A DNA stretch of 31,042 nt, from positions 1 through 31,042 of IMG/VR virus record IMGVR_UViG_3300009790_002314. The stretch is one strand, 5' to 3'. The stretch is from a virus. Position numbers and translations under genes: made by a program. The notes under the pieces were generated by a model. That model was not told where the DNA came from. It saw only the letters and a program-made list of their open reading frames with translations, and ran no database searches. The number at the start of each line of letters is the position of its first letter. Positions within the stretch are counted from its first letter, which is position 1. Positions 10,883 to 19,717 of the stretch are shown in pieces.

Positions 10883-10923
10883 ATTGTGCTTAAATACTTG
10901 TATATATATTAATGGAGGTCCAG

Positions 10924-11511
10924 ATGAGAAAAAAATTAATAGTAATAGGAGTTATTTTAGCAGCAATCTTTATTGCAACTCCTGTAAAGGCAGCAGATAC
11001 AAGTGATGTAATTGCTGGTATTATCTTTGGCGGAATCTTAGGTTCCGAAATCCAAAAAGACAAACAATATAGGGAAGACTATCCTTATTACACCGAACGC
11101 TATGATAGACACGGTGGGTATGAATCAAGACGTAGGCAAGGTAATTACAGGCATTATTATCAACCTAGTATTTTAATTCTACCTGACGGAACTATCATTG
11201 AACCAAGAGTAAGTTTACCTAGAGTTAGGGAAGACTTCTGTTGGTATGTAAATCCAGATAATACTCTACCTAGATGTAGGGATATTGATGTGGGTTACAT
11301 GAAAGACTCTGGGTTTAATTACATGGAGATTGATCGTATGTTAAACTTAGGTACATACGCACAGTCTTATGTAAACAGAACTCATGGTAAAAGGAGAAGT
11401 ATCGAACACCGAGACTTGGTGGAACGATATAAGTATCCATGTGGACATGCTGGTTATGTTCCAATGGGTATTAGGGGCTGCACGGAAGTAGCAGAATATT
11501 ATAACAAATAA
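10924..11511 (+). CDS. exported protein with signal peptide, unknown function
   Basis: 195 aa from the ATG at 10924, 5 bases after a perfect GGAGG; the in-frame ATG at 10912 lies upstream of that site and is rejected. The N-terminus is a typical signal peptide: MRKK, then a hydrophobic core, then a VKAA-like cleavage site near residue 24. A Gly/Ile-rich IIFGGILGSE stretch follows. The mature part is very rich in Tyr and Arg, with four Cys that could form disulfides (FCWYV, PRCRD, YPCGH, RGCTE). It does not match a family I know. It lies directly before the TonB-dependent receptor gene, so a periplasmic or outer-membrane partner of that receptor is plausible. A weak CTTAAATA box lies at 10889. 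Confidence 0.8.
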   Translation: MRKKLIVIGVILAAIFIATPVKAADTSDVIAGIIFGGILGSEIQKDKQYREDYPYYTERYDRHGGYESRRRQGNYRHYYQPSILILPDGTIIEPRVSLPRVREDFCWYVNPDNTLPRCRDIDVGYMKDSGFNYMEIDRMLNLGTYAQSYVNRTHGKRRSIEHRDLVERYKYPCGHAGYVPMGIRGCTEVAEYYNK

Positions 11512-11525
11512 ATTTTAAGTACATT

Positions 11526-13070
11526 ATGAAAAATTTGGTAGTATTAGTCGTGGCCTTATTGGCCACGTCTGTCTATGCGCAACAAAGCGATGTAGAAGAA
11601 CTTATAGTAGTTGGATCAACTATCTCAAACGGGTTTTCAGATCCTGAAACAGATAACCTGGCAATAGAAGCAATAGAACCCATTAAAGTATATGCACCTG
11701 GAGGCAGGGGTGGTTTTATTGGAGCAACATTAAAAGGAACTGACGTAAAGAATACAGCAGTTTTTAGAAATGGAATTCCTGTAAACGATCCTGGCTCTGG
11801 TTGGTATGACTTTGGTGTTGACATTCCAGCATATCAATCTTACAAAGTAATATCAGGACCTAACTCTGTATTATTTGGAAGTTCAAGTATGGCAGGAACA
11901 GTATTGATAGAAGATGAATATTGGCAAGACGTATTATATAGTAAAGGTGGTGAAGACCAAAGCTATGTGATGTTTGGTAATAAGCATTTACTTGTATCAA
12001 GATACCATGGTACTAGCGGCTCTGTAATGACAGACAATAGTGAAGACGATTGGTTTAAAAATACAACATTAAAATCTAATATGGAGTGGCAAGGATTTAA
12101 ATTTGTTTCTACAGTTACAGATTATGAATATGATTATGATAATTGTTATGCAGTTGACTGGAGTAATACAGATGACTGTAAACAAAATGGCACAAAGTTA
12201 ACAACATCAATAAGAAACGATTGGTTAACAATAGGTGCCACTAGAAATGATACTGAACATCTTAGTGCAGGAGATAAAACTTGGCAATCAGATAATAATA
12301 GATATTATATTGATGTTAAGGAAAGTGTTGGTGACTTTTTATTAGGTGCAACATATCAAAAAGAAGAGTACAATGATCTAGAAGAAGATAGACCAGCAGT
12401 ATATGTTAATTGGGAAAATAAACATTTTGGAGTTGGTTATCGTCGTGAAGACTCAACAAACATATTTAAATTTGGATTAGACTTAAAAGGTGTTAAGTTT
12501 TCTTTAGGTAACAGTTTTAGATCTCCTAATTTATATGAACGATTTGGAGATGATTGGGTTGGTGCAAACCCTAACCTAAAACCTGAGGAAGGTAAAGGTG
12601 CTGAAATAAGTTATGCTAAGTTTACTGCATGGAGATATGAATTTGATGAAGGTATTGATTTTAACTTTATGCAATATAGATATGTAAACTCTGGAGAGTA
12701 CACATCTACAGGTATTAAGTATGCTAATCATATCATAACTGAGAACGGAAGTTGGTATGTGTTGGCACAATACACAGACACTGATAAGATTAGAGTACCT
12801 AAATATCAAACAAAGATATCCTACTACAATGGTTGGAATGACTTTGATTACCTGATTGAATATGTAGGTGCTTACGATAAAGGATTAGAGTTTGATGGTA
12901 GACCTATAGACGACATGTCAACATTTAACCTTAATGTAGGTTATTATTTCGATAGAAAATATCGTTTAGGTTTCCAGATCAAAGATGTTATGAACAGACA
13001 CTTTGAAATTTTACCAGGGTATAGTGCAGGTGGTAGAGAGTTAACAATTAGTCTCGACGTCAGTATATAA
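11526..13070 (+). CDS. TonB-dependent outer-membrane receptor (BtuB-like plug and barrel)
   Basis: 514 aa; most cellular relatives are 600-800 aa, so the barrel has short loops. Residues 1-19 form a signal peptide ending VYA. EELIVVGS just after it resembles a TonB box. The plug domain is recognisable: NTAVFRNGIPVND, then GPNSVLFGSSSMAGTVLI at 111-128, the conserved plug end. The barrel is made of alternating strands and contains SFRSPNLYERFG and NPNLKPEEG, highly typical of TonB-dependent receptors. The last residues, ELTISLDVSI, fit a final strand but lack the usual terminal Phe. Such receptors import vitamin B12, siderophores or sugars. In a phage it could replace a host receptor, feed the cell, or block superinfection. 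No clear ribosome site precedes the ATG. Confidence 0.9.
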   Translation: MKNLVVLVVALLATSVYAQQSDVEELIVVGSTISNGFSDPETDNLAIEAIEPIKVYAPGGRGGFIGATLKGTDVKNTAVFRNGIPVNDPGSGWYDFGVDIPAYQSYKVISGPNSVLFGSSSMAGTVLIEDEYWQDVLYSKGGEDQSYVMFGNKHLLVSRYHGTSGSVMTDNSEDDWFKNTTLKSNMEWQGFKFVSTVTDYEYDYDNCYAVDWSNTDDCKQNGTKLTTSIRNDWLTIGATRNDTEHLSAGDKTWQSDNNRYYIDVKESVGDFLLGATYQKEEYNDLEEDRPAVYVNWENKHFGVGYRREDSTNIFKFGLDLKGVKFSLGNSFRSPNLYERFGDDWVGANPNLKPEEGKGAEISYAKFTAWRYEFDEGIDFNFMQYRYVNSGEYTSTGIKYANHIITENGSWYVLAQYTDTDKIRVPKYQTKISYYNGWNDFDYLIEYVGAYDKGLEFDGRPIDDMSTFNLNVGYYFDRKYRLGFQIKDVMNRHFEILPGYSAGGRELTISLDVSI

Positions 13071-14551: not shown

Positions 14552-14606
14552 AAAAAATGCTTGACTCTTGGTTCACCAGAGTGCATAATAACGGTATATT
14601 AAATAA
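14552..14606 (+). promoter_or_regulatory. sigma70-like promoter with internal inverted repeat, copy 1 of a 55-bp repeat
   Basis: Core: TTGACT at 14561-14566, a 17-base spacer, CATAAT at 14584-14589, so transcription should start near 14596, ahead of the ATG at 14630. The whole 55 bases recur at 17069-17123 with one difference (C/T at 14576). The spacer contains CTCTTGGTTCACCAGAG (14565-14581), an imperfect inverted repeat (CTCT-GGT / ACC-AGAG), a possible operator that would compete with RNA polymerase. Confidence 0.8.
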
Positions 14607-14629: not shown

Positions 14630-17050
14630 ATGAACCAGATAGAAACCAAATCAATATTAGCAAAATGTTTAGCAACCGAGAACATTGAAATAGTTCACGA
14701 CAAAGATATGCCTACAGCGGCATTTGATGTTAAGAACAGAGTTTTAATGCTTCCAGTATGGAAGGAAATGTCTACAGATTTATATGATCTGTTTATTGGA
14801 CATGAAGTAGGACACGCACATGAAACTCCTGAAGAAGGATGGCATGATTTCGTAGTTGACGACATGAACAAAAAAGCATTCCTTAATGTTGTTGAAGATG
14901 TTCGTATTGAAAAGAAAATTAAAGCAAGGTATCCTGGTTTAGTTAAGTCCTTCCACAAAGGTTACAAAGAACTATTTGAAAAAGACTTCTTTGGTCTTGG
15001 TAATTTAGATGTTGACCAACTACCACTTATTGATAGAGTGAACTTACATTATAAAGTAGGCAATCTACTTGGTGTTACTTTTGCAGACCACGAAAAAGAT
15101 TTAGTAGAAAGAATTGGTAAAGTCAAAACTTTCGAACAGGTTATGAAACTTGCTGAAGAACTTTATGGTAACCACAAACAGGAACAACAGGAAAGACAAG
15201 AAGACCTTTCACAATTTATTGAAAAAAACATGCCTCATCCTTTTACAGAAGAAGGACAAGAGGAAATGACACAAAGGTCAGAAGCTAGGGAAGAAGCTAG
15301 GGAAGAAATAGAAGAACAAAAATCCAAATCATTGGAAGAGTACGAAGAAGAATCCCAGCGTAGAAAAGAAATTATAGATGATGCCTACGATAACGGTAAA
15401 GAACATCCAGACTTTTCTGATGAAGAAGGCAACGACGAACATACTACTAGATCATACTATGACGGTATGACTTATGATGAAAGAAGAGCATTGGAAGAAA
15501 AACTAGAAGAGCTTGATGCAGAAGAAGTAGCAGACAAAAAAGCTATTGAAGAAGCACAGAAAGAAAAAGATCTTCTAGATGAAATTAGTGAGTACCTAGA
15601 AAATGATGGACACTCAATTACAGATTCACAGTTTAGAAAAAATGAGAAAGGTTTAGTTGATGAAGAATCAAAAGAACTTATTCATGTTAAACCATTCAAC
15701 GGTGAAGTAGCTGACTTTGTTATTCCAATGGAAGAAGTATATGATTGGACCAACGATAATTGTGCTAGAGTAAGTGAATATAAGCGTGAAGATTCATGGT
15801 CAGAAATTGAGATAGAAGATATCAAAGGGTATGGTCAAAAACTTTGGAAAGAGTTTGAACCAAAACAAAGATCTATAATCAACTCAATGGCTCAACAGTT
15901 TGAACTTAGAAAAGCAGCTACTTCATTTAAGAAATCTAAAATTTCTAAAACAGGTAAGTTGAATGAGGACAAACTTTGGGCTTACAAAATTACTGAAGAT
16001 CTTTTCCACCAAACTCAAATTGTACCACAAGGTAAGAATCATGGTATCCTAATGTTCGTAGACATGTCAGGTAGCATGCACAGACAAATGAAGGGTACAT
16101 TAGAACAAATGGAAACGATGGCAATGTTCTGCAGAAGGGTTAACATTCCTTTTGATGTTTATGGATTTAGCGACAATGGTCCTTCAGGTGAGAGGGACAT
16201 TACTGCTAAACAATTACAAGGTGAACTTACAGCAGAGGGTGGTAGAAGAGACTTTTGTTTTGCACACCTACTTAGCTCTAAGGTTAACAATGTTCAATGG
16301 AACGACACAATGGCATACCTACAGTTAATGAAGAAAGGTTATGAAAGACATAGATACTACAATGATTTAGCTGATGGCAGATCTGTACAGATTTACAACA
16401 GGTATTTTAGACTTGGTGGTACTCCATTAATGTCAGCATTGACATTGGCTCCTAAGTTAGCACAAAGGTTCCAAAAGAATTACAATGTAGAAAAATTGAC
16501 TACAATCGTTTTAACAGACGGTGATCCAACTGATGACATGACATTCGTTACTGAAGAAGGTCAAAAACAGTATTACAGAGGCGAACAGAAGTTCGTATTA
16601 AAAGATGGAGCAGCTAGTTTTTCAATCCCAAGCGATAACGATGGCTGGTACAGAAGTAACAGACAAGAAAATGTGCTTTTACTTTTAGAGTATTATAAGA
16701 AAGTTACAGGGTCTACTCTAATCAACTTCCACTTACTAGATGACAACTCTAGGAGAGGCTTTGAATCAGAGTATGCTAGGAACAATTCTTTTAACAAGAA
16801 ATCTAGAGGTTACATTGAAGAGGATACTTGGAAAGAAACATTGGCTAAGAAGTTCATGAGAGTTGAAGACGACTTTGGATACAGTGCTAGGTTCCTTATT
16901 AAAGGTAAGGGAGAACTAGAGATAAAAGACGAAGAATTAGAGGTAAAATCCAACAAAAAAGGAGATTTACTTCGAGGATTTAGGAAATTTCAGAAGGGTA
17001 AAACAACCCAAAGAGTTTTCCTTAATCAAATCATAGAGTTAGTAGCGTAA
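14630..17050 (+). CDS. large protein with HEXXH motif and VWA domain (CobT-like)
   Basis: 806 aa. The N-terminus has a zinc-metallopeptidase-type motif, GHEVGHAHE (H58, E59, H62), followed by a NVVEDVRIEKK segment. This pattern is seen in bacterial and phage proteins that combine a metallopeptidase-like region with a VWA domain. Residues 180-330 are a long, highly charged Glu/Lys/Gln-rich stretch, probably coiled-coil. The C-terminal half contains a VWA domain with the MIDAS motif DMSGS at D478 and further metal-site residues in the GGTPLMSAL and VLTDGDPTDD segments. It resembles CobT, but cobaltochelatase activity is doubtful. VWA proteins often work with MoxR/CobS-type AAA+ ATPases, and one follows at 17145 under a copy of the same promoter. 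A 12-base tandem duplication lies in the charged region. Confidence 0.85.
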   Translation: MNQIETKSILAKCLATENIEIVHDKDMPTAAFDVKNRVLMLPVWKEMSTDLYDLFIGHEVGHAHETPEEGWHDFVVDDMNKKAFLNVVEDVRIEKKIKARYPGLVKSFHKGYKELFEKDFFGLGNLDVDQLPLIDRVNLHYKVGNLLGVTFADHEKDLVERIGKVKTFEQVMKLAEELYGNHKQEQQERQEDLSQFIEKNMPHPFTEEGQEEMTQRSEAREEAREEIEEQKSKSLEEYEEESQRRKEIIDDAYDNGKEHPDFSDEEGNDEHTTRSYYDGMTYDERRALEEKLEELDAEEVADKKAIEEAQKEKDLLDEISEYLENDGHSITDSQFRKNEKGLVDEESKELIHVKPFNGEVADFVIPMEEVYDWTNDNCARVSEYKREDSWSEIEIEDIKGYGQKLWKEFEPKQRSIINSMAQQFELRKAATSFKKSKISKTGKLNEDKLWAYKITEDLFHQTQIVPQGKNHGILMFVDMSGSMHRQMKGTLEQMETMAMFCRRVNIPFDVYGFSDNGPSGERDITAKQLQGELTAEGGRRDFCFAHLLSSKVNNVQWNDTMAYLQLMKKGYERHRYYNDLADGRSVQIYNRYFRLGGTPLMSALTLAPKLAQRFQKNYNVEKLTTIVLTDGDPTDDMTFVTEEGQKQYYRGEQKFVLKDGAASFSIPSDNDGWYRSNRQENVLLLLEYYKKVTGSTLINFHLLDDNSRRGFESEYARNNSFNKKSRGYIEEDTWKETLAKKFMRVEDDFGYSARFLIKGKGELEIKDEELEVKSNKKGDLLRGFRKFQKGKTTQRVFLNQIIELVA
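15281..15304 (+). repeat. tandem 12-bp duplication within the VWA gene
   Basis: GAAGCTAGGGAA occurs twice head to tail, giving a repeated Glu-Ala-Arg-Glu unit in the charged coiled-coil region. The frame is kept. It looks like a recent slippage event in a tolerant linker. Confidence 0.85.
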
Positions 17051-17068: not shown

Positions 17069-17123
17069 AAAAAATGCTTGACTCTTGGTTCATCAGAGTG
17101 CATAATAACGGTATATTAAATAA
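17069..17123 (+). promoter_or_regulatory. sigma70-like promoter with internal inverted repeat, copy 2 of the 55-bp repeat
   Basis: Core: TTGACT at 17078-17083, 17-base spacer, CATAAT at 17101-17106. It is 54/55 identical to 14552-14606, including the stretch after the -10 box. It lies between the VWA stop and the AAA+ gene, so the two genes have separate but matched promoters. The spacer inverted repeat here reads CTCTTGGTTCATCAGAG. Confidence 0.8.
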
Positions 17124-17144
17124 TTAAATGTGAGGACATTAAAT

Positions 17145-18335
17145 ATGAAAGCAATAGATAGAGAAAACTTAATTAGTAACCTGGAGTCCAAAGACAATGG
17201 CACAGGTGTTTTTACAAGAAAGCAGATTATAGAGGCTGCTACTGAAATAGGACTTGGTTTCCCAGCTTGGTTGGTAAACAAACCAGACTATAAAGTAGAC
17301 AGAGGCATCTACAATCTTACAACCATGTTCAGTGGACAGACAGTAGCAAAACCAGCAGCTCCAGTAGCAGCTCAAGAAGCTAGGGTTCCACTTGCAGTGG
17401 TTGAAACTCAACCAGTAGAGGTTGTTCAAGCCAAATTAAGAGTTGAAGTTCAAGACTTGATCCCAAGTAAGGACGATACTTTTGTTCCATTTGGTTTCTA
17501 CAAAGACTTGAAATCCGTATTACAAGGTAATATGTTTTACCCAATCTTTATTAGTGGCTTATCAGGTAATGGTAAGACTACAATGGTTGAACAAGTATGT
17601 GCTAATCTTAAAAGAGAGGCAATAAGAGTGAATATTAGTATTGAAACCGACGAGGATGATTTGATCGGTGGCAATACTCTAGTTGACGGTAACGTCGTTT
17701 ATAGGGAAGGCCCAGTCCTCACCGCGATGAAACGCGGGGCAGTCCTAGTTCTTGATGAGATAGATAGAGGCTCAAACAAGCTGATGTGCTTACAAGCAAT
17801 ATTAGAAGGCAAGCCCTACTTTAACAAGAAAACAGGCGAAACCGTAACTCCTGCTCCCGGCTTTAACATTGTTGCAACAGCCAACACTAAAGGCCGAGGT
17901 TCAGATGATGGCAAATTTATTTCTGCCAACATACTAGACGAGGCATTCCTAGAAAGGTTTGCTATAACCGTGGAGCAGGAGTACCCTACAATGGCTACCG
18001 AGAAAAAGATCGTTATCAATAAAATGGCTAAGGCTAATATTGAAGACGATGAGTTTGCAACTCACTTGGTAACTTGGAGTGATGTAATAAGAAGAACTTA
18101 TTACGATGGAGCAATTGACGAGTTGATTTCAACTAGAAGGTTGGAACATATTGTTAATGCGTTTGCAGTATTTGGTGATAAGCAGAAGGCTGTTCAACTT
18201 TGTGTTAACAGGTTTGATGATGACACCAAACAGGCTTTTATAGATCTGTACACTAAGGTAGATCCTACAGTAGAACTTGCAGCAGATTTTGAAAGCCAAA
18301 CAGAACAGGAGATACATGAAGATGCCGAAGAATAA
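17145..18335 (+). CDS. cobS: CobS/MoxR-like AAA+ ATPase
   Basis: 396 aa from the ATG at 17145, which follows a GTGAGG ribosome site; the GTG at 17130 is part of that leader. Walker A is GLSGNGKT at residues 138-145 and Walker B VLVLDE at 200-205. EFATHLVTW and the STRRLEH motif, with sensor-type Arg, lie further on. Residues 1-62 form a separate small domain (FTRKQIIEAA and a GFPAWLV segment) like those in phage CobS proteins, followed by an Ala/Pro/Val-rich linker. The name CobS comes from the cobalt chelatase subunit, and it is a common annotation in T4-like cyanophages. The sequence supports a MoxR-type ATPase that remodels a VWA partner, here very likely the protein at 14630. 17690-17960 has a higher GC content than its flanks. 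Confidence 0.9.
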   Translation: MKAIDRENLISNLESKDNGTGVFTRKQIIEAATEIGLGFPAWLVNKPDYKVDRGIYNLTTMFSGQTVAKPAAPVAAQEARVPLAVVETQPVEVVQAKLRVEVQDLIPSKDDTFVPFGFYKDLKSVLQGNMFYPIFISGLSGNGKTTMVEQVCANLKREAIRVNISIETDEDDLIGGNTLVDGNVVYREGPVLTAMKRGAVLVLDEIDRGSNKLMCLQAILEGKPYFNKKTGETVTPAPGFNIVATANTKGRGSDDGKFISANILDEAFLERFAITVEQEYPTMATEKKIVINKMAKANIEDDEFATHLVTWSDVIRRTYYDGAIDELISTRRLEHIVNAFAVFGDKQKAVQLCVNRFDDDTKQAFIDLYTKVDPTVELAADFESQTEQEIHEDAEE

Positions 18336-18652: not shown

Positions 18653-19717
18653 ATGAAAATCACTCAAATAACTACTCCTGATAGCTTTCAGGAGTTTCCA
18701 TCTCAGAATGATTCAGACTTAGCAGAGTCTTTTTCTACACCTTTGGACTCTTATTATAATTGGGATTATAAAAATGAGGACACTCGTATTAGAAAAATAT
18801 ATGAGTTGGGTAAAGAGAGAGCCTGGAATCCTACTAAGGATATTGAATGGGATTTAGAACACCCAGGAGATATTAAAGTATTAGGACAATGGCCTGAGGG
18901 AGACGATCCTTTTTGGTTTAATTATAGGCCATATAGAGAGCTTTCTGATGATGATAAGAGAGAATTTCAGAAGCATAAAAACCTGTGGCAATTATCATCT
19001 ATCTTACATGGAGAACAAATGGGAGCTATATGTTGTGGCCAACTTGTTTCATGTGCACCAACATACCAAGCAAAATTATTTGCAGCACAACAGGCTGCTG
19101 ATGAAGCGAGGCATGCAGAAACTATGAGTAGGTATATTGCAGAAAGATATGGTTGTGTCTACCCTATCCAAGAGGGTGTAAAAAATATATTTGATATAGC
19201 ACTAGCTTCTAAGGAGTGGGATTTAAAATTTATTATTGTACAGATAGTAGTGGAAGGATTAGCAGTAAGTACATTCCAAATATGTAGACAAAATACCAAT
19301 GACCCTTTACTAAGACAAATAATGGATTTAATACTACAAGACGAAGCAAGGCATATTACATTTGGTATTAATTATTTAGGTGATTATCTAAAGACGTTAT
19401 CCCAAGATGAGATAGAATATAGAGCAGGGTATGCTTTAGAATGTTGCACTACATTACTCAATAGAGTTGGTTTTGCACCAGGGTTTTATAAACAATTTGG
19501 ATTTGATCCTGTAGGAGCACACAATTTTGCATGTGAATTTGAAACAACTGAACTAGGTAGAAACTTTAGGCTCACGAGAAAACATCTCTTAAGAAGAGTA
19601 ATTCCTAATCTTAAACGAATAGGATTGTTAACCGATAAAGTTAGACCTGGGTATGAAGGATTAGGATTATTAGAGTTTGAAGACTTACCAGATGATATGG
19701 AAGCCTACCTTTTTTAA
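18653..19717 (+). CDS. ferritin-like diiron oxygenase or oxidase
   Basis: 354 aa. A four-helix diiron carboxylate site is visible: E121 in LHGEQMGA, E151/H154 in DEARHAE, E201 in VVEGLAV, and E231/H234 in QDEARH. This E, ExxH, E, ExxH order is that of the ferritin-like oxygenase superfamily. The spacing (30, 50 and 30 residues) differs from class I ribonucleotide reductase R2, and no conserved tyrosyl-radical context is visible, so NrdB is not favoured. AurF-like N-oxygenases, fatty-acid or ligand oxidases and tRNA hydroxylases share the site; the substrate is unknown. The N-terminal 100 residues contain the conserved-looking YELGKERAWNPTKDIEWD. It is the first gene after a late box and has no ribosome site. 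Confidence 0.82.
   Translation: MKITQITTPDSFQEFPSQNDSDLAESFSTPLDSYYNWDYKNEDTRIRKIYELGKERAWNPTKDIEWDLEHPGDIKVLGQWPEGDDPFWFNYRPYRELSDDDKREFQKHKNLWQLSSILHGEQMGAICCGQLVSCAPTYQAKLFAAQQAADEARHAETMSRYIAERYGCVYPIQEGVKNIFDIALASKEWDLKFIIVQIVVEGLAVSTFQICRQNTNDPLLRQIMDLILQDEARHITFGINYLGDYLKTLSQDEIEYRAGYALECCTTLLNRVGFAPGFYKQFGFDPVGAHNFACEFETTELGRNFRLTRKHLLRRVIPNLKRIGLLTDKVRPGYEGLGLLEFEDLPDDMEAYLF

Follow-up and report, generated by a model that had tools for sequence, protein, structure and literature searches.

The receptor gene described here lies in a linear, 31 kb record of a T4-like phage in IMG/VR, and all 31,042 nucleotides of that stretch were analysed (referred to below as the window). Its surroundings include genes for SbcD/SbcC-like, ClpP-like, CobT-like and CobS-like proteins and a family B DNA polymerase, all encoded on the + strand, in line with the T4-like context that the original prediction had given to the receptor gene. 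The features that bear on the argument are collected in Table 1.

Table 1. Positions in the window of the receptor gene, its sequence elements and its neighbours.
Feature	Position	Strand	Evidence and remarks
Small exported glycine-zipper-like protein	10912..11511	+	Just upstream of the receptor; frequent neighbour
Compact BtuB-like TonB-dependent outer-membrane receptor (predicted), 514 aa	11526..13070	+	Pfam Plug; AlphaFold2 model; best match in PDB and NCBIfam is BtuB
Signal peptide (predicted), residues 1–18, MKNLVVLVVALLATSVYA	11526..11579	+	By eye
TonB-box-like EELIVVG, residues 24–30	11595..11615	+	Aligns with BtuB DTLVVTA
Plug domain, approximately residues 32–130	11619..11915	+	Pfam match, model and alignment
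Codons E173–D175	12042..12050	+	E173 and D175 in 45/45, on BtuB Ca-cage D193 and D195
Codons Y204–D205	12135..12140	+	44/45 and 45/45; on BtuB Y229–D230 (Ca, cobalamin loop 3)
B12-binding-domain radical-SAM enzyme, 482 aa	13082..14530	+	PF04055 5e-16, PF02310 1.5e-5; 11 bp past the receptor stop
CobT-like (VWA) protein	14630..17050	+	phrog_459 7e-168; synteny; constant downstream neighbour in the main clade
CobS-like AAA+ protein	17130..18335	+	phrog_249 4e-112; PD_CobS 6e-21, below cut-off; constant downstream neighbour in the main clade

The receptor is encoded by an intact open reading frame that begins with ATG. Each of the sequence elements originally read from the letters was recovered: a signal peptide, recognized by inspection and forming a hydrophobic N-terminal start that is similar across the homologues, a TonB-box-like stretch, a plug end motif (GPNSVLFGSSSMAGTVLI, residues 111–128) and a barrel motif (NPNLKPEEG, residues 348–356). 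The Pfam Plug domain (PF07715) matches residues 57–125 of the window protein above the gathering cut-off (1.3e-6) and is found in 17 of 17 aligned family members, and the TonB-box columns (EE-[VI]-[IV]-V-V-G) are conserved in 45 distinct homologues, where they align with the TonB box of BtuB; the motifs are therefore more than chance resemblances. The protein had also been described as short for its family, and so it is: 514 amino acids compared with 594 residues in the PDB chain of Escherichia coli BtuB, because its loops are shorter and its plug lacks approximately 17 residues, the gap in the alignment falling after the TonB box. The C-terminal residue, expected to be aromatic in outer-membrane barrels, is I in the window protein and varies among the homologues (Y, L, I, T, M or W). 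Cysteines C207 and C218 are invariant in the phage receptors and could form a loop disulfide.

The structural model was generated with AlphaFold2, template-free, from an alignment of 17 phage sequences (a 3-sequence input gave a pLDDT of 28). It reached a pLDDT of 78 and a pTM of 0.78, and places a plug at about residues 32–130 followed by 22 strands after residue 130, as counted by us from the strand list of the model. The architecture on which the original prediction had been staked beforehand, a plug in a 22-strand barrel, is thus present in the predicted structure. Against solved structures, Foldseek ranks E. coli BtuB first (E values as low as 7.7e-15, TM 0.63–0.69), with other TonB receptors following closely, so that the ligand cannot be read from the fold by itself. 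Judged by sequence and predicted fold, the gene product is a TonB-dependent outer-membrane receptor.

To place the receptor within this family, we compared it with profile and structure databases and with its closest bacterial relatives. A PDB profile search with the phage family ranked E. coli BtuB first (2.4e-23) and Bacteroides BtuB1 next (6e-4); a PDB search with the single receptor sequence gave no match. The NCBIfam TonB-B12 model is matched by 15 of the 17 members (best 9e-18), and there are weak secondary matches to NCBIfam heme and hemoglobin receptor models. Identity to BtuB is approximately 25%, and the window protein scores 44–46 bits, short of the NCBIfam BtuB equivalog cut-offs of 599.7 and 836, as do the riboswitch-linked bacterial homologues tested (241–344 bits). 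A cobalamin riboswitch upstream of BtuB genes is usual, not essential. Such a riboswitch lies at or just upstream of 17 of the 20 bacterial genes that rank nearest to the phage profile, compared with 4 of 20 other receptors in genomes from one of the same classes (Fisher P = 9e-5), a contrast that is conservative because the control receptors, hand-picked down a Plug ranking, include some BtuB-like genes. This regulatory contrast is the strongest independent evidence for kinship with B12 receptors. Neither the window nor nine phage loci yielded a cobalamin riboswitch. By PDB profile, NCBIfam models and riboswitch-bearing relatives, BtuB is a closer relative of the window receptor than other TonB receptors are.

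The residues that serve BtuB at its ligand site can be followed into the phage proteins. BtuB holds two calcium ions near the B12 pocket, in a five-aspartate cage, and its Y229, D230 and Y579 contact cobalamin in simulations (PMC7360065). When 45 phage proteins were aligned with Salmonella BtuB by MAFFT, residues E173, D175, Y204, D205 and Y499 of the window protein came to lie on BtuB D193, D195, Y229, D230 and Y579, and each is conserved in 44 or 45 of the 45; hhalign pairs the first four with BtuB positions in the same way. The five cage aspartates are D179, D193, D195, D230 and D241: the columns of D193, D195 and D230 hold E, D and D in 45/45, and D179 and D241 are not securely placed.

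The original prediction argued against a contaminating host fragment, named a chimeric assembly as an outcome that would refute it, and proposed a search of marine viral contigs and a phylogeny against host receptors. Alignment-based scans of IMG/VR yielded 70 viral loci with relatives of the receptor (29–92% identity), mostly at one site in the order clpP, receptor, CobT-like, CobS. Some of these contigs are 140–170 kb in length and carry the T4 capsid gene; the capsid protein gp23 is encoded on 10 of 17 receptor contigs. The independent contig L002 is approximately 90% identical and syntenic over about 15 kb spanning the receptor gene, dozens of further contigs share the synteny, and L004 has the gene order of the window with a receptor of 67% identity. 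Of the CobS-anchored loci in which ClpP and CobT are both visible, 26 have the receptor between the two and 13 lack it, and it is present in 20 of the 21 loci with a CobS at least 79% identical to that of the window; some contigs in these counts are near-copies. The 45 distinct phage receptors form a single clade (SH-aLRT 99), separated from bacterial BtuB by a long stem (0.78 changes per column). With a dN/dS of 0.15–0.20 (window versus L002), the receptor is, as far as sequence comparison can tell, under purifying selection, which extends to the plug, the TonB box and the ligand loops. Two sets of genomes were searched by profile, 369 from the class to which an Oceanospirillaceae MAG belongs and 385 from that of a Rhodobacter, and only remote relatives emerged: the best full-length score was approximately 100 bits, compared with 359–860 bits for the phage copies in whole-record searches. 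GTDB scans with A1 and A3 found no close cellular copy. On this evidence the receptor is a resident phage gene and not a chimera. A tblastn search of a phage collection with the receptor protein found no phage homologue, and its matches to coliphage ssDNA-binding-protein genes (26%, E 0.2–0.8) were taken as chance. Two records of that ‘phage’ collection, AGRM01000004.1 and AFYI01000005.1, are Salmonella contigs with btuB and 16S rRNA.

The gene that follows the receptor encodes a predicted radical-SAM enzyme with a B12-binding domain, for which the best NCBIfam models are the PhpK P-methyltransferase and a B12-radical-SAM lipid-biosynthesis family; a sequence search found no relatives in the PDB. 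The two genes adjoin in three members only, and other members have a homologue of the enzyme a few kb away. Of the 10 receptor contigs that are 72 kb or longer, 8 carry a B12-binding domain, compared with 0 of 8 related receptor-less phage records (three of them 142–162 kb in length). This co-occurrence, uncorrected for kinship, is suggestive rather than statistical proof, given the relatedness of the phages and the near-copies among the contigs. As a user of the vitamin, a class II ribonucleotide reductase was considered and rejected for the main clade: the alpha and beta subunits of one receptor phage (G001) score above class I cut-offs, the other contigs read have an NrdB-like gene near that for the alpha subunit, and a class I enzyme needs no B12. 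The phage Melnitz (L278) has a large ribonucleotide reductase subunit annotated as vitamin B12-dependent (MZ577097.1, 27054–28877) with a small-chain gene beside it, which is probably a class I misannotation as described for cyanophages (PMC6370689). By eye, a QueC-like protein is encoded between NrdA and NrdB in L086, L087, L088, L091, L092 and L093, and some such receptor-bearing phages have a ThyX-like protein upstream.

CobT-like and CobS-like genes are found in receptor-less phages too; for that reason they lend no specific support to a B12 theme and were not counted. Just upstream of both lies a 55-base, sigma-70-like element (TTGACT-N17-CATAAT), at 14552–14606 and 17069–17123, the two copies being 98% identical; the −10 part is retained in L004 (6889–6932 and 9428–9509), and the elements are probably paired promoters. 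Downstream of CobS, at 18653–19717, is an AurF-like diiron oxygenase-type protein (PF11583, 1.6e-12), which also occurs at L106 3886–4380; few relatives have one. No family match was found for the glycine-zipper-like protein upstream of the receptor. Such proteins stand at the same place in receptor-less phages as well (L153 7217–7576; L182 6992–7327), and a functional link to the receptor is unproven.

The likeness to BtuB, taken together with a B12-binding enzyme in most of the genomes, suggests that this large group of uncultured T4-like phages pulls B12 into infected cells. From sequence and model, the receptor is probably a phage-specific, compact descendant of BtuB that imports B12 during infection and feeds the B12 enzyme of the phage. 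We also lean towards the broader proposition that a widespread T4-like clade encodes a cobalamin-scavenging module, comprising an outer-membrane B12 receptor and a B12-dependent radical-SAM enzyme. The setting of the receptor gene amid genes for replication and recombination suggests that it is expressed early or midway through infection. We infer every step after synthesis of the receptor. During infection, host machinery would export it to the outer membrane of the cell, where it would bind cobalamin at a BtuB-like, probably calcium-dependent apical site; import would be powered by host TonB–ExbBD, and the B12 would then be passed on to the inner-membrane uptake system of the host, which must supply this stage because no phage inner-membrane B12 transporter is seen in the window. 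The extra B12 would serve the B12-dependent enzymes of the infected cell, foremost the radical-SAM enzyme of the phage. Expression itself, insertion into the outer membrane, cobalamin as the substrate, transport and a benefit to the phage are likewise what we infer. Three functions had originally been proposed for the gene, namely rescue of nutrient uptake, a decoy and a block to superinfection; the first is favoured here and sharpened to vitamin B12, and the other two gained no positive evidence.

Vitamin B12 need not be the cargo. The protein could be a working TonB-dependent importer of another ligand (another corrinoid, heme or a metal chelate), its specificity having changed after it left the BtuB lineage, as the long stem of the phage clade, the weak secondary matches to heme and hemoglobin receptors and the closeness of other TonB receptors in fold would allow. 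We consider this unlikely, given the strict conservation at positions aligned with the calcium and B12 site of BtuB and the co-occurrence of the receptor with B12-binding proteins. Phages are known to exclude superinfecting rivals by means of outer-membrane proteins, as in the action of T5 Llp on FhuA, and the receptor may accordingly block or divert competitors, as a decoy, a BtuB substitute or a competitor for TonB, against phages and colicins that use BtuB or TonB. The conserved TonB box would also suit competition for TonB; however, a decoy needs neither intact B12-site residues nor a linked B12 enzyme, purifying selection on the plug, TonB box and ligand loops argues against such a role, and PADLOC gives no match for the receptor, so that we regard it as improbable. 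A non-transporting adhesin or virion component that retains the barrel fold seems very improbable: a TonB-receptor-like gene of Polarivirus skadi lies among virion genes and was read by its authors as related to adsorption (PMC10504331), whereas the gene in the window sits among replication and recombination genes and its product has a signal peptide, a TonB box and a plug. A chimeric assembly, host contamination or a freshly captured, decaying host fragment has a negligible chance of being correct; nothing was found in its favour, and it was ruled out at the sequence level by the synteny in dozens of independent contigs, the strongly supported single phage clade, the lack of a close cellular copy in the genome searches, the low dN/dS and the presence of gp23 on the same contigs.

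Should the receptor import vitamin B12, as we favour, it would, as far as the open-access literature shows, be the first importer of this vitamin known to be encoded by a phage; we came across no phage BtuB-like receptor there, and papers on B12 and marine phages (PMC10547690, PMC6370689) do not mention one. B12 has been argued to be scarce and too bulky for a lytic marine virus to depend on, and no B12 transporters are known from picocyanobacteria or the phages that infect them (PMC6370689). It has also been speculated that some viruses may increase the uptake of B12 in the course of infection (PMC10547690), for which the receptor family provides a concrete, conserved candidate. The receptor family itself is known; what is new is its unexpected carrier and the compact, old phage lineage that it forms there. 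If the B12 reading is true, outer-membrane nutrient uptake of the infected cell would come under viral control, outer-membrane import would join the host functions taken over by viruses, the adjoining cobS/cobT-like genes might acquire a B12 context, and there would be a bearing on marine vitamin cycling.

TonB-receptor-type proteins are known from other phages, in different settings. That of P. skadi belongs to a podophage. The BFVD entry A0A8D9FQQ5, ‘TonB-dependent receptor SusC’ of an uncultured marine phage, differs from the window receptor in being SusC-like and 805 amino acids long (TM 0.47, 10% identity). The isolates nearest by capsid to one receptor contig (71–72%) are the OM43 phage Melnitz, a Methylophilales phage, and the SAR11 (Pelagibacter) phage HTVC008M, both T4-like members of the Kyanoviridae. 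HTVC008M shares the order SbcC, CobT-like peptidase, CobS, but neither a receptor homologue nor a B12-binding domain was found in either isolate. BtuB itself (E. coli 1NQH; TIGR01779/NF007926) has 594–614 amino acids and a plug longer by about 17 residues; the phage receptor, far below the equivalog cut-offs, is distinguished by its extra invariant C207 and C218, by being phage-encoded and by having no riboswitch. The two nevertheless share a TonB box, a plug, a 22-strand barrel (predicted in the phage protein), C-terminal barrel motifs and acidic or tyrosine residues at four to five positions of the calcium and B12 site, and the bacterial genes closest to the phage receptor are riboswitch-controlled and of the btuB type.
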